DNA from: Planctomycetota bacterium
Lineage (GTDB): Bacteria; Planctomycetota; Phycisphaerae; SM23-33
DNA length: 38,401 bases
Direction: 5' to 3'
Assembly (NCBI GenBank): GCA_024275995.1
Contig: JAJRYB010000004.1
Coordinates: 1 to 38,401 of the forward strand
Made by a program: the position numbers and the translations under genes. The notes under the pieces are model-generated. The model did no database searches and was not told the origin of the DNA. It saw only the letters and a list, made by a program, of their open reading frames with translations. Shown here piece by piece: positions 24,802 through 38,310 of this stretch (positions within the stretch are counted from its first letter, which is position 1; every line of letters starts with the position of its first letter).

Positions 24802-27800
24802 TTACCGGTCGGGGAACTGACGTTCTTCTTCCTCGCGCTGGATGATGATCTTCGGCTTGATCATGATCAGCAACGTCTGTTCATCGCGAACGCGCCCGCG
24901 ATTGGTGAAAAGGCGGTTGATGATCGGGATTTTGCTGAGGATCGGAACACCCATCTCGTTCTCGAGCTCGCTGGCGAGTTTCTGTCCGCCCAGCAGCAGC
25001 GTTCCGCCATCCGGAACGGATACCGTCGTCTGCAGGTCCTGGACCGTCACTATCGGCAGCTGAACCGTACCGGTTCCGACGTTCAACTGTGTCAACTGGT
25101 TGAGCGTGGAAACCTGCGGGCGGACGGTGATCGTCACGTAACGCCGGTCGGCGGAGACGGTCGCCTCGACGTCCAGCACCGTTCCGGTGGGCACATAGCT
25201 GATAATCGGACGCAATTCACTGGTGTTGTCCGCAACGACCGGTTCAAACGCCGAAACATAGGCCTGCTGCTGGCCGACCGTCACGTACGCCCGCTGGCCG
25301 TTGAACAAGGTAATTCGCGGCGCGGTAAGCTGACGCGTGGACGAATGCGCCTGAGTAGCCTGGATGAGGAAGTTGACCTGGATGTCGTCCAGGAAAACCC
25401 CGCTGACGCTCAGTGCCGGGGACGTAACCGCTGCACCGATGCTGGCTGCACCGAAGCCCGGGGTCTGCTGGGAAAGCATGTTTCCAAAGCCGATCTGGTT
25501 TTGTGCAGCCCCGGTCACAACGCCGACGGGGGTCAACGACGAGGTGCCTGGTTTTCCGGCGCCCCAACCGCTCCCTCCACGAATCGGAACCTGCGCACCA
25601 GTGAACGGATCGGTGACGAAGTTCTGATTGATGGCGTTGTTCCCTGCCAGCCCCGATCCGATGTTGAAGAATAAATCCAGATCGACGCCGATCGAATTGA
25701 GATAACCGCTCGAAACCTGGATGAACCTCGACTCGATCGATATTTGCAGCGCCCGCGCCTCTCGGAGCTGGTTCACCAGCGTCACCAGATTCTGCTGGTT
25801 TTCCGCGGTCTGTGTAACCACAAGCTGCCCATGAAGTTCCCGGATCGCACCAATCTCGCCGGTCGGACGCCACGAATTCGGGTCCACCGTTTCCTTGATC
25901 AGGGTGATGATATTATTGATAAGCTCGCTCCGCGGGATAAGGTTGTCCTCGCCGGTGCGATTATTATCGCCGGTATCGTTCCCGAAGATCGATCCGTTGG
26001 AGCTGCTACTGGTGTTATTTCCGGACGCACCGCAGATGTCGGACAGTTCGATCCGCGGGCCCGGGAAGTTCGGAACGCGGAAAATCAGGTCGCGGATGTC
26101 ATACACTCGCGTGACCGTCCTGCGCGAGAGGTCTTCCTTCGTGGAAATCGTGATCACACCGTCGTCCAGGATGTAACTCAACGGATTCACGCCGCCAACG
26201 TCGTCCAGAATGACCCGCAGGGCCTTTTCGAATGTCACGTCTCGCAACTGGACCGTAACCGGCGTCGTCTTGTCGATACCCGCAGCCTGGAGGGCGTTCC
26301 ACTTGACGTGAAGGCTCAGGCCCGATATGTCCCGCAGAAACTCCACGACGTTCTCGAACTTGATCTCGTTGAAGTCGAGCTTCGGCACGCGAACGCCCAG
26401 CTTCTGGCGCACCAGGCGATCGGTTTCGCTCTGCCCTCCGCCGCCCACTCCGAACGGGGCGCGGCGAACCGTAAGCTCCCGCCAGTTGCGCGGATACCGC
26501 AACAGCTCGTACCACGGGATCTCCGCCTCGCGAAGATCTATCAGGACGCGCTGCTCCTGGTACCGCTGCTCCTTATCGAGGCGTCTCTCTTCCTGAAGCA
26601 GGATAAACTGCGTCAGAAGCTCTCTACGCTCTGAAGCCCAGCGATTATTCGGGTCCAATTCTATGATCTGGTCCAGAATTTCCTTTGCGGATGCGTACTT
26701 GTGCTCGCCGGTTAGCGTCTTGGCACGCTGGGTAAGCGTGGCGATCATGTTCGCACGACGCATACGGGTGTCCCGTTCGCGCTTTTCCTGGGCGACGACG
26801 ATTTCCTGCTGCTTGATGCGAACCATCGCCCGCTGCCAATCGTCTCGCTTCAGGCTGATATGCTTAAGCTGGGCTTGGACCTTGCGGAGCAGTTCGCGAT
26901 ATTCGCGATCCGGGAAGTACCGCTTGTTCTTCTCGGCAACGGTTTCCGCCGATCGTGCGAAGTTCTCCGCACTATCGAATTCCTCTGCACTGTCTGCGCC
27001 CGCCAAAGCCTCCTGCGATCGGGCCATCGTCTTATCGTATTCGAGCTGCGCCATCTGCTTGGAAACCCGCAGGTTCTCCTGCAGACGCGTGAGGATGCCT
27101 TCGCCCTTGGGGGAAGCCGTCAACTGCCTGGCGTGTTCCAACAATCTCTGCGCCTCGCTGAGGTCAGGCTGGAGCACCAGGGCACGTTCGAACAGCGCCA
27201 CGGCCCGCTCGGGTTGATTGTTGTCCATCGCCTTTTTACCCGTAATGAGCAGATCTCGCGCCTTGGCGTGACGACGGGCGACGTCGCGAAGCATCTTGCG
27301 ATCACCCTTCGGTTCGGCGGTGACCACCTTCGGCTGGACCTTCGGCTGGATGACCTTGGGTTCTGTTTTCGGTCCGGTCTCCGCGACGGTAACGGCCGAT
27401 GCGACCTTGATCTTGGCGACGACTTCGGCGTGCTTGACCTTTGCGGTACGGTACTCCGTGGGGGTGAGAACCTTATCCGCGTGCTTTTCGGTGGCGAGGA
27501 CCGCTTCGAAGCCGGACTTGGCTTCCTCGAGCTTCTTCGCATGGAGGGCCGCGACGGCGTCATTGTAGGCTGCACGCGCGGTCAACTGCTTCTTGTGCAG
27601 CGCATCGGCCTTGTTGAGGTACAGATCGATCCGGCGCTTCACGTCGGACGGTAGAGCGTTGGGCTCTTTTTCCAGGATCTTTGTCGCATCCAGGAACGCG
27701 GTCTTTGCCTTCTGGAACTCATAGCTTTCCCACAGCTTAACACCTTGATTCCAGCACTTCCTGGCATCGTCAGAAGCCTGTGTTCCATTGTCCGCCCACA

Positions 27801-27870
27801 CCAGACCAGAAGCCGCGGCCAGGATGGCGACCGGAAGAATCACTGAGAAAACCCGGCGTAGATTCAGCAC
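24802..27870 (-). CDS. Type II/IV-pilus-type secretin with long helical N-terminal region
   Basis: An outer-membrane secretin of 1022 residues, expected to form the gated ring of a type IV pilus or type II secretion-like machine. A signal peptide (about 1-26, ending VWADN) is followed by an unusual region of about 430 residues rich in Ala, Lys, Glu and Gln with TPR-like repeats (QPERAVALFERALVLQPDLSEAQ) and coiled coils. At about 490-600 lies an N0/STN domain (LDFNEIKFENVVEFLRDISG, then VTVQLRDVTFEKALRVIL). An N1-like segment and Ser/Asn/Gly-rich linkers follow. The C-terminal pore, about 700-1010, has the signature VPILSKIPIINRLFTNR. An AAGGAG ribosome site and a 295-base leader precede it. 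Typical PilQ and GspD proteins are 600-750 residues, and the extra length lies in the helical N-terminal part. PilQ fits best from the neighbouring PilMN and PilO genes. Confidence 0.9.
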   Translation of the reverse strand: MLNLRRVFSVILPVAILAAASGLVWADNGTQASDDARKCWNQGVKLWESYEFQKAKTAFLDATKILEKEPNALPSDVKRRIDLYLNKADALHKKQLTARAAYNDAVAALHAKKLEEAKSGFEAVLATEKHADKVLTPTEYRTAKVKHAEVVAKIKVASAVTVAETGPKTEPKVIQPKVQPKVVTAEPKGDRKMLRDVARRHAKARDLLITGKKAMDNNQPERAVALFERALVLQPDLSEAQRLLEHARQLTASPKGEGILTRLQENLRVSKQMAQLEYDKTMARSQEALAGADSAEEFDSAENFARSAETVAEKNKRYFPDREYRELLRKVQAQLKHISLKRDDWQRAMVRIKQQEIVVAQEKRERDTRMRRANMIATLTQRAKTLTGEHKYASAKEILDQIIELDPNNRWASERRELLTQFILLQEERRLDKEQRYQEQRVLIDLREAEIPWYELLRYPRNWRELTVRRAPFGVGGGGQSETDRLVRQKLGVRVPKLDFNEIKFENVVEFLRDISGLSLHVKWNALQAAGIDKTTPVTVQLRDVTFEKALRVILDDVGGVNPLSYILDDGVITISTKEDLSRRTVTRVYDIRDLIFRVPNFPGPRIELSDICGASGNNTSSSSNGSIFGNDTGDNNRTGEDNLIPRSELINNIITLIKETVDPNSWRPTGEIGAIRELHGQLVVTQTAENQQNLVTLVNQLREARALQISIESRFIQVSSGYLNSIGVDLDLFFNIGSGLAGNNAINQNFVTDPFTGAQVPIRGGSGWGAGKPGTSSLTPVGVVTGAAQNQIGFGNMLSQQTPGFGAASIGAAVTSPALSVSGVFLDDIQVNFLIQATQAHSSTRQLTAPRITLFNGQRAYVTVGQQQAYVSAFEPVVADNTSELRPIISYVPTGTVLDVEATVSADRRYVTITVRPQVSTLNQLTQLNVGTGTVQLPIVTVQDLQTTVSVPDGGTLLLGGQKLASELENEMGVPILSKIPIINRLFTNRGRVRDEQTLLIMIKPKIIIQREEEERQFPDR

Positions 27871-28165
27871 TGCAAAACTCCTTATCAGAAATCATCATTG
27901 TTGCATTCTTGCGAACACCGTTAACGGATGAATCGCCCACACCGTGATAACGTCCCGATGCGCAGTCGCACCCTATCCACGTTTGCCCGCAAATCCATCG
28001 GTTATACGAACGTTATGACAACGATGAAATCTATGAATGCCTTCCACAGACGGTCCAAACCTGCCCGCGGGCTGGCGAGAATACGTTAACTCTCAGACAC
28101 TTTGCAAGCTCAAAATCCACCCGTCACAAAACGTCGGGATTTCCCGGACAACAATCCCGGTTCCT
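27871..28165 (-). other. Leader region of the secretin gene
   Basis: This is 295 bases between the stop of the proline-rich protein gene and the secretin ATG. It has an AAGGAG ribosome site seven bases before the ATG and a candidate minus-strand promoter, TTGCAA (28102-28107) and TATTCT (28078-28083) with an 18-base spacer. That promoter would leave a leader of about 200 bases. A small CCCGGT/ACCGGG hairpin (28156-28173) overlaps the stop codon of the upstream gene. No gene was seen here. Confidence 0.35.
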
Positions 28166-29926
28166 TTACCGGGCTTCGTCCAGAAGCTTCCTGTACCGCG
28201 GCGAACCGCGGTCTGTTATCAAGTCTCGCGTACGAAGCCGACCTTTGGCGTCCAGGTACAGCAATTCGGCTGCAAAGTTACGTATGCCTTCTACATACAC
28301 CTTTCGGTCATATTCGACATTTACGGCCACTGAACCTGTACCAAAATTCACCTTCCTGTCGATCGTTTCACCGGTTCGCGGATCGTTTACGGTCACGGAG
28401 CGGTCCCATCCAATCGCCCGACCCGCCACCACTTCGAAGGTCGTACTGACGCGCTGGCCCAGGCTTTGGGCAAAAACGCGGACGGTAACCTGCCTGTCTC
28501 GAGCCGATCCGACCAGGAAAAATTCCGTCGCCGTCGGGATGAACACCGCCTCCGACCACTCGCTGCGAGGGCTCGAAACCGACGTCACCAGGGCATCGGG
28601 CTGCTGGTTCTCTGCGAGTTCCTTTTCGTAGGTAAGCAGCGGGTTCACCAACTCCACCTGGATGGAATACTGATAATACTTCATGCTTTCCAGGCCCGTA
28701 TCGTGCACGACGATCAGGACCGTCCCGGCTGCACGCTGCTGCTCCAGGCTCGGCAGCTGCGGAATCGTGATGCCTTCGGGGCGCTTCTCGTCCGCCTTTT
28801 TCCCCGGTAAAGGAACGCGGGTCACCGGCTGACGGGGCCGCCTGACAGTGGACACCGGTGGTCTCGGAAGCATGGCACCTGGCGGGGGACCAAACTCCTC
28901 CGGCATCATGCGACGAGGATCTGGCTGACGAACAGGGGACCGGGGAGTGCGACGGATTGTCGGCGGAGGCGCAACGATCCGGCGAGGGTCTTCCACGGGC
29001 GTTCTCGGCGCGATGCTCTTGGGATCGATCTTCATGGCTGTGGACATTTCCGTCACGGCGTTTTGCGGAATGTGCCACCGCCAGGAAACGTACTGGTTAC
29101 CGGCGGGCCAATAAACCTCCGGGTACTCCGGCTGGAGTATGTGTTTCTGCCAGACCGGGTTTAAGAGCGCCTCGATCGCATCGCGCACCTGTTTGAGATT
29201 CTCGCCTTTCTTGTACTGCGGAATTTTCGGTACGTCGACGGGGTTGCCTTCCTGGTCGACGAGCTGGATTCGGTCGCCCCGGATTTCCTTCGCCTCGCCC
29301 CACTGCCCTTCCGGTGTTCGCTCGCGACGGAAGACCCGAACGCGAATAACCGCCAACTGCAATGGGATTCTAGTATTACGAAGTTTTTCGTTCCATGCGC
29401 GGACCAGTTCGCCCCAAGGGAACACCACCGCCAGACGACCGACGAGCATATCCGAAGCGTCTTCGGTCCGGGGAAGTTCCCAACCCGCCCAGACGGCCGG
29501 TTTACTGGGTGCGGGAACAATCTTTTCCATGTCTGCAAGCGTCGGTGGTTCAAACGTCGGACCAACGCCCGAGCCGCCTCCCGTCAATGGTTTGTACGGC
29601 AGACCAAAATCACAGCAGGTCAAACCGGTGAACGGTTCGCGACGAAGCATGGCGAACTCCTCGGGCCAATTGGGCAGATCGGGCTCGACGACCTCGACAT
29701 CGTCGATCCGTCTGCGAATCGCCTCCGCAGCCTGAAGCAGGCGATCGTCGGCCTCCATCGGCGAAACCACTTCATCGCCGATACCCAACGGGCCGGGCAC
29801 TTTTACCAGTCGGGGCGAAGATGAGACCCAGTGGGAAAGCGCGTAGACAAGCAGCAGAACGCAAATTGCCAACACGCCTTTTTCGACGTGTCGTTCAAAT
29901 ACGCTGACTTCCGTATCCTTGGCCAT
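28166..29926 (-). CDS. Proline-rich single-pass inner-membrane protein of the secretin cluster
   Basis: A 586-residue protein of no recognised family. An N-terminal charged tail precedes one membrane helix (about 17-34, LAICVLLLVYALSHWV). The large exported part contains two ordered regions (about 60-260 and 400-586) joined by a Pro/Arg-rich linker (RRTPRSPVRQPDPRRMM). By position it lies between the PilO-like gene and the secretin, where PilP is normally encoded. The Pro-rich linker between globular domains fits a protein that reaches from the inner membrane to the secretin. Homology to PilP cannot be claimed from reading alone. The start at 29926 places the helix correctly, and the upstream PilO-like gene ends 56 bases before it. 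Confidence 0.75.
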   Translation of the reverse strand: MAKDTEVSVFERHVEKGVLAICVLLLVYALSHWVSSSPRLVKVPGPLGIGDEVVSPMEADDRLLQAAEAIRRRIDDVEVVEPDLPNWPEEFAMLRREPFTGLTCCDFGLPYKPLTGGGSGVGPTFEPPTLADMEKIVPAPSKPAVWAGWELPRTEDASDMLVGRLAVVFPWGELVRAWNEKLRNTRIPLQLAVIRVRVFRRERTPEGQWGEAKEIRGDRIQLVDQEGNPVDVPKIPQYKKGENLKQVRDAIEALLNPVWQKHILQPEYPEVYWPAGNQYVSWRWHIPQNAVTEMSTAMKIDPKSIAPRTPVEDPRRIVAPPPTIRRTPRSPVRQPDPRRMMPEEFGPPPGAMLPRPPVSTVRRPRQPVTRVPLPGKKADEKRPEGITIPQLPSLEQQRAAGTVLIVVHDTGLESMKYYQYSIQVELVNPLLTYEKELAENQQPDALVTSVSSPRSEWSEAVFIPTATEFFLVGSARDRQVTVRVFAQSLGQRVSTTFEVVAGRAIGWDRSVTVNDPRTGETIDRKVNFGTGSVAVNVEYDRKVYVEGIRNFAAELLYLDAKGRLRTRDLITDRGSPRYRKLLDEAR

Positions 29927-29982
29927 TTCGGCCTCCTGTAAAGCTCACACTTACTTGCTGCAATCTTCCTATAACGCCGGCA

Positions 29983-31575
29983 TCAACGCCTCGTCGTCCT
30001 GGGCTTCTGCATCCTGGCCAGGTCCCTTTTACGAAGAACGGAGGAATTTTTGGCGTATAGCACCTTGAGGACATCCACCGGCATCAACGGCGGGTACTTG
30101 TCCGACCATGCACCTTTTTTTCGGATACCGGCACCTTCGACCCGCTTGTCGGGATCCCATCGCCCGCGGGTCCAATCGGACAACATCACGAACTCGCCGT
30201 AGATGGTCACCTGCATGACAGGATCGGTGCCGAAATAATACCGATCGTCGCCCGCCCGGTCGTTTGCACGCGCCGTGGAACGGGTTGTCTTCGTTCCAAT
30301 CTGGATTATTTCGGTCTGGAGCACCGTATGGTAGCTGCGTCCCTGGAGATTCTTCATCAGCAGCGGCAGGTGCCGCGTGGGCATGATCACGGTGAACTTG
30401 TAGTGGACTACCTCGAATTTCCGGTTCGTGCTGCGACCGGTAAACCCGATCGTTTCTCCCGACGATGTGCCGCCTGCCCTTTCCAAGGGGCCGGGCATAC
30501 CCGGCTCAAACTCCGGGCCGCGCGGTCCGCCGGGGCCTGGACCTGGACCTGGGCCGGGGCGGGGAGATACCCTGCCACGTGACAGTATCGGCGCCGCGCC
30601 GGCACGCACGTAGTAATTTTCGTCGACATCGACGCTTACCAGTCGTTTGACGGCCGCGACACTCACGCGAGGCCGCTTTGGTTTGGGGGTGTCCCGCTCG
30701 AGGGCGATGTTGTTCGTGTCCCTGATTGCGCCAACGATGTCTTTCTGCACCAGCAGGTTCACAAAACTTCGCCACAACTCAACGTCCGTCGCGCCGACCC
30801 GCTCGACCGGGAAGACCATGTCGAAAGATCCCAGCGTCGCATACGTCACGCCCGCGCGAGAATGGAACAGCACAGAGGTTTCGAAACCTTCCACCTTGGC
30901 CTGATCCTCGACGTTCCTGGTCTCCTCGCCCCTCGGCGCCCTGATGACGATCCTGCCATCGCCCGGAATAGCGCCGCGAGGCTCCATCGGGGCAACGGGG
31001 GCTACGGGGGCAACGGGAACGCCCAGGCGACCGGCTGCGTCGTCACGCTCCGCATCCAACACCCGGCGGTGTCCGCTCGCCTTGATGCGATGCCTGGCCT
31101 TGTCAACTTCCACCTTGATCTCAGCGTCTGTTGGAGGGCGCGTGGCCTCCAACTCCTTCAGCAACGCTTTGAGCTCCTCGATGTATTTTTTGGTTACCTC
31201 GAACCCGAGGGCGTATTTTCCGTAAAGTTCCCGGTCGATCGGGAACGCGGGAACCATTTCGACCTTGTTCGCGTCGTCCCGCTTCGGAACTTTCAACATG
31301 TCGAAACGGTTCGAGTTCCATTCGACGATCTTGTTGCCGATTTCCTTGGCGCGACCCTGTACGGCCTCGACACGCCTCTTCTCGGCCTTGACGGTGAGCA
31401 AATTCGCCTTGCTGTGGAAAAGGCTCTTCAGATCTTGCGCCGCTTTTTCCCGCGGCGCCTGCCTCTCGTCGACAAGCCCGCTCTTACTGAACGAACCTAT
31501 CAGCAGGATCACGCCGACGACGGCAGTCACGACCGCCACTATCACCAGAAACAGGTTTCGCCTTACGAATTCCAT
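29983..31575 (-). CDS. PilO-like inner-membrane assembly protein
   Basis: A 530-residue protein with one N-terminal membrane helix (about 7-27, FLVIVAVVTAVVGVILLIG). A charged coiled coil follows to about residue 165 (KEIGNKIVEWN, KKYIEELKALLKELEA), and the rest is a large periplasmic part. This helix-coil-globular layout and its place after PilMN fit PilO, although it is far longer than the usual 200 residues. Low-complexity sequences interrupt it: VAPVAPVAP and a Pro-Gly run (RPGPGPGPGPGG), both coded by short DNA repeats. Near 430-460 a KFTVIMPTRHLPLLMKNLQGRSYHTVL segment looks like the ferredoxin-like PilO/PilN fold. The start is the ATG at 31575 with a GGGAG ribosome site; the reading upstream of it is open but overlaps the pilMN end region. 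Confidence 0.75.
   Translation of the reverse strand: MEFVRRNLFLVIVAVVTAVVGVILLIGSFSKSGLVDERQAPREKAAQDLKSLFHSKANLLTVKAEKRRVEAVQGRAKEIGNKIVEWNSNRFDMLKVPKRDDANKVEMVPAFPIDRELYGKYALGFEVTKKYIEELKALLKELEATRPPTDAEIKVEVDKARHRIKASGHRRVLDAERDDAAGRLGVPVAPVAPVAPMEPRGAIPGDGRIVIRAPRGEETRNVEDQAKVEGFETSVLFHSRAGVTYATLGSFDMVFPVERVGATDVELWRSFVNLLVQKDIVGAIRDTNNIALERDTPKPKRPRVSVAAVKRLVSVDVDENYYVRAGAAPILSRGRVSPRPGPGPGPGPGGPRGPEFEPGMPGPLERAGGTSSGETIGFTGRSTNRKFEVVHYKFTVIMPTRHLPLLMKNLQGRSYHTVLQTEIIQIGTKTTRSTARANDRAGDDRYYFGTDPVMQVTIYGEFVMLSDWTRGRWDPDKRVEGAGIRKKGAWSDKYPPLMPVDVLKVLYAKNSSVLRKRDLARMQKPRTTRR
30535..30558. repeat. Hexamer repeat coding for Pro-Gly run
   Basis: Plus-strand GGCCTGGACCTGGACCTGGG-type hexamers code, on the minus strand, for alternating Pro and Gly in the PilO-like protein. 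A second, 9-base repeat near 30988-31020 codes for APV units. Both could vary in unit number without breaking the frame. Confidence 0.5.
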
Positions 31576-31607
31576 AACAGTACACTCCCGGGCATCAGCG
31601 CCCGTCC

Positions 31608-33797
31608 TTAATCCGTCTCGTTTTTCGCGATCCCATCGTCCTCGACGCGCACCATCCACGTCAGTGTGAACCGCGTATCATTGACGCTTTCCTCACCCGT
31701 GAGCGGATCGGGCACCTTCGGCCCCTGCTCGGTTTTGTCCCCATCCGTTCGCGGACCTCCAGTCAGGGGCCCGGTCAGCATGTCGCTCGGGCGACCAGCA
31801 GGCCTTGCCACGACGCCGGTTCTGCGACCCGCCGCCTCGCCGACCTGTTTGAGTTCCAGGCGAAACTCTCCCACCACCGACAACGACGGCAGCGTAACGG
31901 AGATTTCCTGGATCCTGCGTTTCAGCAGGTTGTTGATAAGCGTATTGGCGTCGTTTTTGCTCAGCGGCGTCCACCCTTTCATCGACAGGAGGAAGCCGGG
32001 CTTTGCTCTTCCGGTGGTTGTCGCGCGGGAGATCCGGCGTCTGTCTCTACCAGCCGGAGCGGCAGACGCCGCCGAGTCCTCCGGGCGCAGAGCCGTATCG
32101 ATGTTATCGTAAAACTTCGCGGTCAGACCTTCAATCACGATGATCCGACGCTGCCGGCGTTCGATGTCTGTAAACTTCTTCAACATCGAGTCGCGAAGCT
32201 TCCCGGCGTCCAGCCGCCCTATTGCCGCCAGGATCGATTGAGCGTTCCTCAGGCCCGCTAAAAGAGACTCGCGCTCCGCCGGGTCGCTTACGTGCCGAAT
32301 AGCCTCGACCTTCGCCTGCTCGCTCTGCACGAGCTTGATCCGCTCCAGGCGCATCTTCTCGTCTGGCAGGTTCTCCAGGCCGTCCAGAATCTTCCGATCA
32401 CGCACGGTCATCGGACCCATCGTTACGTCCAGGATAGATCGCGACACGAGCGAATGAACGGAAGGCCAGAAGCTTCGATAACCAAACAGGTTACGGAATA
32501 ATCCGATCTCTTTCTCTTCGCTGGTGCCCTGGTTGCGGAGGCGGTTGAACTCGGCCCTATAGCCCTCGTACTCCTGTATGATAGATTGCGCCTGGCGAAG
32601 TTTGCTCTCCCCTTCAGCGAAGGTTCCGGCATCCAGGTTCGCCCGATATAGCGGGCCCGCCAGCGACGCCAGGATCAATGCCGCCGAGGCTGCAAACCAG
32701 GGCCTCTTGCGACGCCAGGCGCGATGCCGGGCAATCGCGACCGGAAGCAGGTTCGTATTGACGGCCGTCTGCTCCAACCCCTGAAGCGCCAGCCCGTACG
32801 CCACGGCAAAAGACGGCACGTTCTCGGTGAACGTCGGGGCGTTGACGGCAGGGGATGTGTCGAGATGATTGTAGCTGTCAATGCGCGCGACCGGAATGCC
32901 CAAATTCTGTTCGAGGAATTTCTGGAGCCCCGGAAGGCGGAAACCGTTACCAAGTCCGACCAGGCGGGCAAAGCGACTCTCACGGTGCAGCGACGTATAG
33001 TATCCTATGGACCGCTGGATTTCCTGAACGAGGTCCGCGAACACCGGACGCATAGCCTGGAAAATCTGGCGGGCGTACTTGCTGCTTGCGGCGGTGCGTT
33101 TCAACCGCTCCGCCTTGGAGAACGACAGCTTGAACGCACGCACGAGCGCCTCGGTGAAGTTGTTCCCACCGATCTGGATGGTCCGTGTCCAGATGCGGGC
33201 GCCGTCGGCGATGACAAGGTCGGTCTTGTTCGCACCCACGTCCGCCAGCAACGTAGCACCGTCGGCAGAAGCCTGTCCGTCGAACACCATGAAGTTGTAA
33301 AGCGCCAACGGCGCCATCTGCACGATGTCCACGTCCATCGCAACTTCGGCGAAGTGTTCGAGCATGTTCCCGACGTCAGTGCGTTTCATGGCGAAAATAC
33401 CCACTTCCACGTCGGGCGAGTCGGGGTCCTCGAACGTCTGGTAACGCCAGATGACCTCATTGATGGGAAATGGGATCTGCTGCTCCGCCTCGAAACGAAC
33501 AATGTCCGGGACGCGCTTGGCCTCGACGGGGGGAAGCTTCACGAACCGCGTGAAGCTCGTCTGGCCCGGAACCGATACCACCAGTGCCGAACCGGCAACG
33601 TGGTTGCGGGCAAGGAATTGCTCCAGGGCGGTACGAATGAGCTGCCGACGGTCCGCGTCAGGCTGGGAAAGAATCTTCGGATGCTCTATGATGTCAAACG
33701 CCTCGACCCGAAGCTCGCCGTCCACATCGCGAAGCTTCAGGGCCTTGAGAGCACACTGACCTATATCGATGCCCCACACACTCTTCGCTGTCGCCAT
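31608..33797 (-). CDS. PilM-PilN fusion, pilus/secretion assembly platform
   Basis: A 729-residue protein that joins two parts normally encoded by separate genes. Residues about 5-340 are PilM, an actin-like cytoplasmic ATP-binding protein (SVWGIDIGQCALKALKL, PPVEAKRVPDIVRFEAEQQIP, LADVGANKTDLVIADG, LVGLGNGFRLPGL). At about 346 comes NTNLLPVAIARHR, the conserved INLLP stretch by which PilN binds the groove of PilM. A membrane helix (about 364-382) and a coiled-coil plus periplasmic region follow to the end (TPLSKNDANTLINNLLKRRIQEI). The fusion tethers PilM to the membrane in a 1:1 ratio. The ATG at 33797 has AAGGAG five bases upstream; a GTG two codons earlier is less likely. The cluster lacks PilB, PilC and PilT, which must be elsewhere. 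Confidence 0.88.
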   Translation of the reverse strand: MATAKSVWGIDIGQCALKALKLRDVDGELRVEAFDIIEHPKILSQPDADRRQLIRTALEQFLARNHVAGSALVVSVPGQTSFTRFVKLPPVEAKRVPDIVRFEAEQQIPFPINEVIWRYQTFEDPDSPDVEVGIFAMKRTDVGNMLEHFAEVAMDVDIVQMAPLALYNFMVFDGQASADGATLLADVGANKTDLVIADGARIWTRTIQIGGNNFTEALVRAFKLSFSKAERLKRTAASSKYARQIFQAMRPVFADLVQEIQRSIGYYTSLHRESRFARLVGLGNGFRLPGLQKFLEQNLGIPVARIDSYNHLDTSPAVNAPTFTENVPSFAVAYGLALQGLEQTAVNTNLLPVAIARHRAWRRKRPWFAASAALILASLAGPLYRANLDAGTFAEGESKLRQAQSIIQEYEGYRAEFNRLRNQGTSEEKEIGLFRNLFGYRSFWPSVHSLVSRSILDVTMGPMTVRDRKILDGLENLPDEKMRLERIKLVQSEQAKVEAIRHVSDPAERESLLAGLRNAQSILAAIGRLDAGKLRDSMLKKFTDIERRQRRIIVIEGLTAKFYDNIDTALRPEDSAASAAPAGRDRRRISRATTTGRAKPGFLLSMKGWTPLSKNDANTLINNLLKRRIQEISVTLPSLSVVGEFRLELKQVGEAAGRRTGVVARPAGRPSDMLTGPLTGGPRTDGDKTEQGPKVPDPLTGEESVNDTRFTLTWMVRVEDDGIAKNETD

Positions 33798-33924
33798 AAC
33801 CACTCCTTGGCACTACGGACATTAACCGCCTGCCGCGGACGCGCACGGTATCCTTGCGCCCACAAGGCCCTTACTCGTCGACGAACATCCGGGCAATTGC
33901 CACAATGATTCTTGAACGGTTTCG

Positions 33925-35478: not shown

Positions 35479-35519
35479 CCCCCTTGCTCTCGAAGCGCCT
35501 CGCCGGTACATTCGCACCC

Positions 35520-36290
35520 ATGTCCGACGAGAGAGAACATCTCATCAGTGCAGCCGAGCAGTTGCTCGCCATCGAAGACCTGCTCGGCGGCAAATACATG
35601 CCCGCTGTGCGAAACCCCCTGCCGGAAATCGAACCATCCGCACTGCCACCGGCCGCTCTTATCGGAGAAGATACGATGACGCCGGAGGATAAAACCCGTG
35701 AGTTGGCGGCAATGAACGACGGTGAGGTGAAAAACTGCCGGCGATGCCCACTGGGTAAATCGCGGACGAACACCGTTTTCGGCGAGGGTGATCCCAACGC
35801 CGAACTGGTTTTCGTGGGCGAGGGACCGGGCGCGGACGAAGACCGCACGGGCAGGCCCTTCGTGGGTCGGGCGGGCGAGCTGCTCACGAAGATGATCCTC
35901 GCGATGGGCCTGACGCGCGAGCGGGTGTTTATCTGCAACATCGTAAAGTGTCGCCCGCCGGGTAATCGCGCCCCGGCTACGGAAGAAGTGGACGCCTGCT
36001 GGGGCTACCTCGTGCGACAGCTGCAAATTATCCGTCCGAAGGTTATCGTCACGCTGGGCAACCCCGCCACGCAGAACCTGCTCGACACGCGGACGGGAAT
36101 TACGCGCCTTCGCGGGCAGTGGCAGAAACTTCCCGATCTCGGCGAGGGGCTCGGCGGCATCGACGTTATGCCTACCTTCCACCCGGCCTATATCCTGCGA
36201 CAATACACGCCGGAAAACCGAGGGAAGGTCTGGGACGATCTCCAGAAAGTCCTGGTCAAACTGGGCATGGAACTGCCGAAGAAACAGTAG
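35520..36290 (+). CDS. Family 4 uracil-DNA glycosylase
   Basis: Removes uracil from DNA in base-excision repair; family 4 enzymes contain a 4Fe-4S cluster. The 256 residues include an N-terminal extension of about 65 residues and the catalytic domain. The cluster cysteines are Cys73, Cys76, Cys144 and Cys160 (CRRC ... KCRPPGN ... CW), with the family spacing. Motif 1 is GEGPGADEDRTGRPFVGRAGELL and motif 2 is FHPAYILRQ. The start is the ATG at 35520 (MSDEREHL); an upstream TTG and an internal ATG (MTPEDK) are alternatives. The YdcF-type gene follows 13 bases later and shares the mRNA. Confidence 0.92.
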   Translation: MSDEREHLISAAEQLLAIEDLLGGKYMPAVRNPLPEIEPSALPPAALIGEDTMTPEDKTRELAAMNDGEVKNCRRCPLGKSRTNTVFGEGDPNAELVFVGEGPGADEDRTGRPFVGRAGELLTKMILAMGLTRERVFICNIVKCRPPGNRAPATEEVDACWGYLVRQLQIIRPKVIVTLGNPATQNLLDTRTGITRLRGQWQKLPDLGEGLGGIDVMPTFHPAYILRQYTPENRGKVWDDLQKVLVKLGMELPKKQ

Positions 36291-36303
36291 GGGAAGACAG
36301 ACT

Positions 36304-37291
36304 ATGAAATTCGCACGTCTTACAGCATGCATTCTGGGCGCTTTCGCGATGTTGAACATCCTGGGGGGGGGGGTTGCTGCGTCCCGGATTCGACGCGAAC
36401 GTCTGGTGGATCGACATGCGGGCACTTCCTGGCTGGCTGGGCGCGGCGATTTTGCTCACCGGATCGTCGGCGCTGCTGACGATGGCAATTCTCCCTCGAA
36501 TGTCTCGGAAAGCTCGGTTGCTGATTGCGGTTCCCGTCGCGACGATGCTGACAATATGCCTGTGCAACGCAGCCGTGTTTTACAGCCTGGTCCTCTCCGG
36601 TGAAATCCACACCGCCCTGATCGTTCCCCTGTCGCTACCAATCGCGGCGATGCTGGCGTGGATCCTTCGATGCATCCACGCCGCCAGGTCGGTGCCGCTT
36701 CGTTCCAGCGGGCGCGCCGCCAGATGGGTTGTCACGGCAGTTCTTGCGGGCGCCATCCTGCTTTCGATACCGTTGGCGCAGATGTTCTGCTTCGGCAAGA
36801 CGGACTATCGCCGAAATGCCGACGTTATCGTGGTATTCGGCGCCGGCGTTTATGCCGATGGAAGCATGTCACTGGCGCTGGCGGACAGAATGCGAACGGC
36901 GATTCGCCTGCACAAGCAGGGCTACGCCGAAGCGATGGTCTTCTCGGGCGGGCCAGGGCAGGGTAGCGTCCACGAAACTGAAGCGATGCGCCGTATGGCG
37001 ATCGAACATGGCATTGAACCGGAGGCTATCTTCCTCGACCGCAACGGGCTGAACACGCGCGCTACAGTCGCCAACACATGTGCGATGTTCGACCGCACCC
37101 GCTGGCGGCGCGTGCTGGCGGTCAGCCACTTCTACCACCTGCCCCGAATAAAGATGGCCTATCAGCGCGCCGGGTTGGAAGTATTTACGGTTCCCGCAAA
37201 AGAAACACGACCTCTCAATGCGATGGGATACTTCATCGCCCGCGAGGCGGCCGCTTGGTGGGCCTACTACCTGCGCCCGCTGGCAGCGTGA
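36304..37291 (+). CDS. YdcF-type (DUF218) membrane protein, out of frame at a G11 tract
   Basis: The DUF218/YdcF (SanA/ElyC-like) fold is at residues about 170-320 of the repaired protein: ADVIVVFGAGVYADGSMSLALADRM, MVFSGGPGQGSVHETEAMR, DRNGLNTRATVANTCAMF, VLAVSHFYHLPRIKMAYQ. Several membrane helices precede it. The family is linked to envelope metabolism, but its reaction is not settled. Translation should start at the ATG at 36304 (MKFARLTACILG), which has a GGGGAAG ribosome site. This frame enters an 11-G run (36363-36373), shifts and ends at about 36603. Ten Gs would give one protein of 328 residues, reading LGGGLLRPGFDANVWWID across the join. The only start in the second frame is a TTG right after the run. 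This suggests phase variation, or a base-call error in the homopolymer. Its end overlaps the converging SGNH-like gene by 25 bases. Confidence 0.8.
36363..36373 (+). repeat. G11 homopolymer tract
   Basis: Eleven consecutive Gs lie 59 bases into the YdcF-type gene. The tract is the longest homopolymer I see in the window, and the reading frame is correct with 10 and broken with 11. Confidence 0.9.
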
Positions 37292-38310
37292 GGACCGCCG
37301 GCTGCGCTAATCTTTTTCGCCAGGTCTTCCGAAAGCTTCGTAGCGTCGTTGGGATACGTTCCACCCGGCGGGTTCTGCCCGGCGAAACCGTTGCTGTGGA
37401 TGTGGCTGCCATCATAAGTGTGATATGCGTCCTGGTCCATCTCGATCCATGTCCCGCCTGCCGTCTCGAACCGCCGGCGGAAGTCCGCCTCGTCGAAGCC
37501 GCTCTTTTCGCCCTCCAACTTCACCATCGCGGCGCACGAAGGCACGCGAAACGCGTACACGCGAATACCACCTTTGCGCCAGCGACGCACCGCCGCTGTG
37601 ATATTTGCAATCGCCCGCTCGCAGACCTTGTTATTCTCGAAGATATTTTCGTAAGCCCGAAGCGCCTTGCGCGGCATCTGCGGAACACGAGTGCCTGCAA
37701 CCCATCCGTCGGCGTGGTAAAATTCGTAGTAGCGTCGTTTGGCGGGCTTCGGAAAAATACCGCGCCACAGGTCGCGTAGTGAGAGCGGCTCGAAGAACGC
37801 GATCAACGGCGACGGTAGAGACGCCATCAGCGCCGACTGCGTCGACAGTTCCCGCCGGGCGCTCAGGAAACCGTTGTCGCGCATCGCAGACGGCGTCAGC
37901 GAGTGCGGTGTAATTCCCAATACGATCGTACGGTTCGCCCTCCCTGCCTCCAGCACGCTCTCAATCGCCGAGAGATACTCCTTCGAATAACCCGACGAGT
38001 TGAACCCGAAATTCACGACGCGAACCGGGCCCAGTTTTTTTCGCATCACTTTTTGCATCGCGGCCGGGCTTACGGACCGGTATACGCGGGAATCGCCCGC
38101 CACCACCATGTCCGCCACGCCTCGCCACGCCGCCTTCCGCAGCCAGAATACCTGCGGATACACGCCCCAGTTCGTTCCCGCGGGGCGCAGCAGGCCGGCG
38201 CCCACGATCAGCGCGACGGCGAGGCAGGCCGTAACCGTCATGCGGTCTCTCAGGAACCGCCAGAGAACACTCGTTCGTCGCATTTCGGTTTCCGGGACGG
38301 CTTCCGGCAT
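37267..38310 (-). CDS. SGNH/AlgX-like protein, probable partner of an MBOAT acyltransferase
   Basis: A 347-residue protein with an N-terminal membrane helix (about 27-44, TACLAVALIVGAGLL) and an exported domain of SGNH/DUF1574 type. The GDSR motif (VVAGDSRVYRS) near residue 71 supplies the block I serine, and DGSHIHSNG near residue 310 supplies the terminal Asp-x-x-His pair. Such proteins, like AlgJ, AlgX and DltD, move acyl groups to envelope polysaccharides together with an MBOAT protein, and the end of one lies just upstream. The start is the ATG at 38310 behind a GAGG ribosome site; the longer reading into the upstream gene is spurious. The substrate is unknown. Confidence in the fold is moderate and in the partnership fair. 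Confidence 0.78.
   Translation of the reverse strand: MPEAVPETEMRRTSVLWRFLRDRMTVTACLAVALIVGAGLLRPAGTNWGVYPQVFWLRKAAWRGVADMVVAGDSRVYRSVSPAAMQKVMRKKLGPVRVVNFGFNSSGYSKEYLSAIESVLEAGRANRTIVLGITPHSLTPSAMRDNGFLSARRELSTQSALMASLPSPLIAFFEPLSLRDLWRGIFPKPAKRRYYEFYHADGWVAGTRVPQMPRKALRAYENIFENNKVCERAIANITAAVRRWRKGGIRVYAFRVPSCAAMVKLEGEKSGFDEADFRRRFETAGGTWIEMDQDAYHTYDGSHIHSNGFAGQNPPGGTYPNDATKLSEDLAKKISAAGGPHAASGRR

Follow-up and report, generated by a model that had tools for sequence, protein, structure and literature searches.

Introduction

Homopolymers near the 5′ end of a gene are a known layout for phase variation, and the described cases include the poly-A tract of B. subtilis swrA, the poly-T tract of C. 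coli flhA and the poly-G tract of P. putida flhB (PMC2831843). In the literature searched we found no report of simple-repeat phase variation in planctomycetes. Frameshifts can also have plainer origins, and a prokaryote-wide survey considered singleton frameshifts that lack clustered relatives to be probable indel mutations or sequencing errors (PMC3711429). Among proteins with a DUF218 domain, threonine, histidine and glutamate residues have been proposed as a triad in SanA, and the predicted location of E. coli YdcF is cytosolic (PMC12176290).

Here we describe a DUF218 membrane-protein gene, frameshifted at a G run, at 36304..37291 on the plus strand of a 38,401-nt stretch of planctomycete DNA (the window). 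We propose, with a probability of about 0.75, that the G run is specific to this lineage and prone to slippage, that it lies in a probably dispensable gene and that it carries one G too many, either as a real recent allele or as a homopolymer miscount.

Results

A run of 11 Gs breaks the reading frame in the consensus

An uninterrupted G11 occupies 36363-36373 (plus strand), beginning 59 nt into a gene that starts at ATG 36304, and it is the sole G/C run of at least 8 in the window. The start codon is preceded, at a 9-nt spacing, by a Shine-Dalgarno-like AGGGGA (36289..36294, plus strand) that overlaps the 3′ end of an intact upstream gene of the uracil-DNA glycosylase family (35484..36290, plus strand; Pfam PF03167, E 1.1e-39). 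With G11, the frame from ATG 36304 meets a stop codon at 36601..36603 (plus strand), and the resulting 99-residue truncated product would consist of the first membrane segment and about 76 unrelated residues, with the DUF218 domain lost. A second frame of 305 codons (36374-37291), offset by +1 relative to that of ATG 36304, is open directly after the tract. When one G is removed in silico, the two ORFs (36304-36603 and 36374-37291) fuse as MKFARLTACILGAFAMLNILGGG-LLRPGFDANVWWID..., and the joined G10 reading across the tract is MKFARLTACILGAFAMLNILGGGLLRPGFDANVWWIDM...; lengths of G7 and G13 are also in frame. Gain or loss of a single unit in this tract, which lies inside the ORF, toggles the gene between G11, out of frame, and G10, in frame. 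The earlier note on this DNA had described the tract, the ribosome site and ATG, a frame end near 36603 and G10 read-through into an intact YdcF domain, and each of these descriptions agrees with what we find.

Elsewhere in the window, a series of minus-strand genes (24802-33803) resembles by sequence the set of assembly genes for a type IV pilus or a type II secretion system and includes a secretin-like gene (24802-27870) and a PilM-like gene (31608-33803).

Orthologues read continuously across the tract site

A search of relatives and genome contigs returned 26 full-length orthologous loci, 23 of them distinct, at about 40-51% identity and from genomes outside the genus. In the alignment, nearly all 23 distinct orthologues carry the N-terminal pattern RG.A.FLGGF.LLNL.G(E/N)L..PGFDAN.WWID. 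The window gene encodes the pattern up to LLN..G on the 5′ side of the tract and PGFDAN.WWID on the 3′ side in the other frame, the conserved loop LLRPGFDANVWWIDM (36374..36418, plus strand) lying directly 3′ of the tract. Because a single orthologue motif continues across the tract, the two frames are, on this alignment, one gene and not two, broken by about one G. A separate downstream gene starting from TTG 36374 was also considered and is ruled out, as the upstream first transmembrane segment and motif match the orthologues.

At the tract site the relatives have a G-rich stretch, GGC GAA/AAT CTG, which ends the first transmembrane segment. The best-scoring orthologue, L075, reads GLAAFIGGFSLLNLLG-NLLRPGYDANIWWID; since L075 has one glycine fewer than the G10 reading, whereas G7 fits the usual orthologue length, the run probably grew within the present lineage. 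A comparison of G-run lengths among homologues had been suggested by the earlier note, and every orthologue found codes the same residues without the run, the nearest being about 50% identical. No tract is retained in any of the 23 distinct orthologues, whose longest G run, with the whole ORF checked, is 6.

The downstream frame encodes an intact DUF218 domain

The DUF218 domain (Pfam PF02698, E 2.8e-24) spans 36821..37213 on the plus strand, residues 150-280 of the downstream frame, and its score of 86 bits against a gathering threshold of 27.6 places the protein within the family. The motifs HETEAM, NT..T..NT and SHFYHLPR are kept, and it is plausible, judging from these conserved motifs rather than from an alignment with SanA, that the residues of the SanA triad have counterparts here. 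Hydropathy indicates about five transmembrane segments ahead of the domain. The first of them, FARLTACILGAFAMLNILG (36310..36366, plus strand), corresponds to the first helix of an orthologue model and runs into the tract. The positive charge of the loops after helices 2 and 4 suggests that the N-terminus is probably inside and the DUF218 domain on the outer face of the inner membrane.

Structure was predicted for the intact orthologue L036, standing in for the window protein (mean pLDDT 74, pTM 0.69). The model has five long helices followed by an alpha/beta domain, and its top PDB match is E. coli YdcF (3ca8_A; Foldseek E 2.4e-3, probability 1.00), at a modest TM-score of 0.38/0.47. By this measure the orthologue is predicted to have a YdcF-like fold; a sequence search of the PDB gave no match. 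The top NCBIfam matches are SanA, at 29.5 bits (cut-off 363), and ElyC, at 24.6 bits (cut-off 205), which leaves the protein outside both equivalogs. The description of the locus as a YdcF-type envelope gene holds at the level of the DUF218 domain, and fails beyond it in that E. coli YdcF has a predicted cytosolic location whereas about five transmembrane helices are present here, as in the membrane-anchored branch.

A patchily distributed gene with an undecayed downstream frame

A full-length homologue is present in 3 of 34 other family genomes (about 4 of 35 counting the gene's own genome). Given this patchy distribution and the lack of a second close copy in its own genome, the gene is probably dispensable and its loss tolerated. 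The 305 downstream codons contain no stop and no second lesion; by our computation, a frame of the same composition that was free of constraint would accumulate about 27 stops per substitution per site. Because the downstream frame shows no decay and the DUF218 motifs are kept, the frame break is recent, reversible or not real.

Long G runs are ordinary in this genome and its family

Markov models predict 0.001-0.018 G/C runs of at least 11 in the window, where one is observed. Across the genome, 3 such runs are observed, one of them at a contig end, against 0.08-1.2 expected; for runs of at least 10 the count is 5 (one being the contig end) against about 1.4, a mild excess of the longest runs, and for runs of at least 8 it is 31 against about 28 under an order-4 model. 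The G11 is notable within the window and not exceptional genome-wide. Runs of at least 10 Gs occur in 55 of 60 genomes (own included), at up to 27 per genome, and the level in the present genome is ordinary for the family.

Coding calls at runs came from a codon-usage model for which the window's genes served as the training set. By these calls the same genome has about 19 coding G/C runs of 8-10 that keep the frame, a G10 in flhF among them; the window G11 is longer than any other coding run seen in the genome, and it alone was out of frame, its frame break having been detected through the orthologues and not by the codon-usage test. For the family we sampled 60 runs of at least 10 Gs from 21 genomes, of which 23 lay in noncoding DNA, 17 had coding sequence on one flank, 10 were at contig ends, 9 kept the frame and 1 was a strand switch. 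No frame switch was seen among the 60, and all 9 runs with coding on both sides were in frame; breaks less than about 100 nt from a gene start escape this test, so that some may be hidden among the 17 one-sided runs. Genes with in-frame runs include KsgA (L096), PrmC (L142) and histidyl-tRNA synthetase (L146), as named from sequence motifs. Because G10-G11 tracts sit in frame in housekeeping genes, a long coding G run is by itself no mark of a switch. The in-frame runs also indicate that such assemblies as a rule give homopolymer lengths correctly.

A set of switch genes in the same genome was considered and rejected, as its other runs of at least 10 Gs comprise the in-frame one of flhF, one that ends a contig and apparently intergenic ones; the coding runs are in frame, and no enrichment of long tracts in surface or variable genes was found in the genome. 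Loss of mismatch repair as the cause was likewise rejected, MutS and MutL being present with open frames.

Several of these runs have features of their own. The flhF gene (L071, contig C18, minus strand), assigned by sequence and adjoining flagellar genes, carries its G10 at about codon 91; it also has an in-frame TAA at about codon 243 within a conserved stretch (RTYA*IVEV) and is otherwise intact, possibly a nonsense allele or an error. In the related genome G025, an in-frame G11 (L103, position 1502) encodes the glycine-rich DLCCGGGGWA near codon 10 of a protein that resembles a DNA cytosine methyltransferase, a better-placed phase-variable candidate than the window gene. In the related genome G010 an in-frame G11 (L150, position 1502) lies near codon 37 of a protein whose N-terminus is hydrophobic and which has a metalloprotease-like HETGHMFSMYHC motif. 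In the related genome G008, on many contigs, many of the runs of at least 10 Gs lie less than 100 bases from contig ends or are closely paired, which suggests a G-rich repeat that breaks assembly. Contig C42 of the window's own genome ends exactly in a C14 run (38026-38039).

Discussion

We propose that an ordinary DUF218 gene, encoding about five transmembrane helices and then the DUF218 domain, has acquired a long G run in the present lineage from the G-rich stretch that ends its first transmembrane segment. With one G too many in the consensus, translation from the ATG would stop at 36603 and the DUF218 domain would be lost. The extra G most likely came from strand slippage at the run, an event that the undecayed downstream frame suggests was recent. 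Alternatively, the run was miscounted during sequencing or assembly; we give a miscount and a genuine recent slip nearly equal odds. If the run is real, Gs would be gained and lost at homopolymer rates and the gene would be able to revert, but such reversion would be a side effect of the run and not an evolved switch.

The earlier note had named a miscount as the plain alternative, and we retain it as one of these two origins, tentatively and at somewhat less than even odds. On this account the tract really has 10 Gs and the gene is unbroken, which accords with the error-prone nature of long homopolymers, the own-genome C14 run that stops exactly at a contig end and a gene that is otherwise whole; one category of singleton frameshifts in the prokaryotic survey was likewise read as sequencing errors and not as genuine indels (PMC3711429). 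Weighing against a miscount are the roughly 19 other coding G/C runs of this genome that are in frame, flhF included, the coding runs of at least 10 Gs in relatives, nine of nine of which keep the frame where coding sequence flanks both sides, and the window's other genes, among which no further frame break was noticed. The reading favoured in the earlier note, slipped-strand phase variation, which we take to mean that selection keeps the tract as a reversible on/off switch, fits the layout only: the tract lies 59 nt from the start, single-base changes toggle an otherwise intact ORF for an envelope-type protein, and the position matches known phase-variable genes (PMC2831843). The run is found in no orthologue (at most 6 Gs, congeners being outside the set), the genome has no excess of long G runs relative to its family, coding runs of at least 10 Gs in relatives preserve the frame and belong to housekeeping genes, and the mismatch-repair genes are intact. 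We therefore consider it unlikely that a maintained poly-G switch of a membrane-anchored DUF218 envelope protein varies within this Phycisphaerae-type planctomycete population.

It is less probable still that the gene is a settled pseudogene, dead and decaying in the present lineage. The frame break and the lack of the gene in most family members would suit such a history, but 305 codons without a second lesion and with the key motifs kept would not. Long runs can be slippery for the ribosome or the polymerase, and ribosomal +1 frameshifting or RNA polymerase slippage could in principle yield some full-length protein from G11. We regard such programmed recoding as very improbable, for neither a run nor a frame break occurs at the site in any orthologue, nothing there is conserved, and transcriptional slippage is known mostly on A/T runs (PMC3711429).

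Should reads show the tract to be variable, it would exemplify phase variation by a simple repeat in a planctomycete lineage, and a true switch would act on a family of cell-envelope factors now linked to peptidoglycan balance. Caution is warranted: because housekeeping genes in these genomes also carry G10-G11 runs, a tract and a frameshift in one assembled genome are weak evidence for a switch.

Like swrA, flhA and flhB, the window gene has a homopolymer near its start whose length sets the frame; whereas tract variation was seen experimentally in those genes, the window offers one consensus and no relatives with the tract. The protein resembles the E. coli inner-membrane proteins SanA and ElyC in being membrane-anchored with a DUF218 domain, but it scores far below their equivalog cut-offs and differs from them in its approximately five transmembrane helices and in the N-terminal WWID motif common to its same-class relatives. 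E. coli YdcF (PDB 3CA8) is the top structural match of the orthologue model, and the window protein adds to that likeness a membrane part that YdcF does not have.
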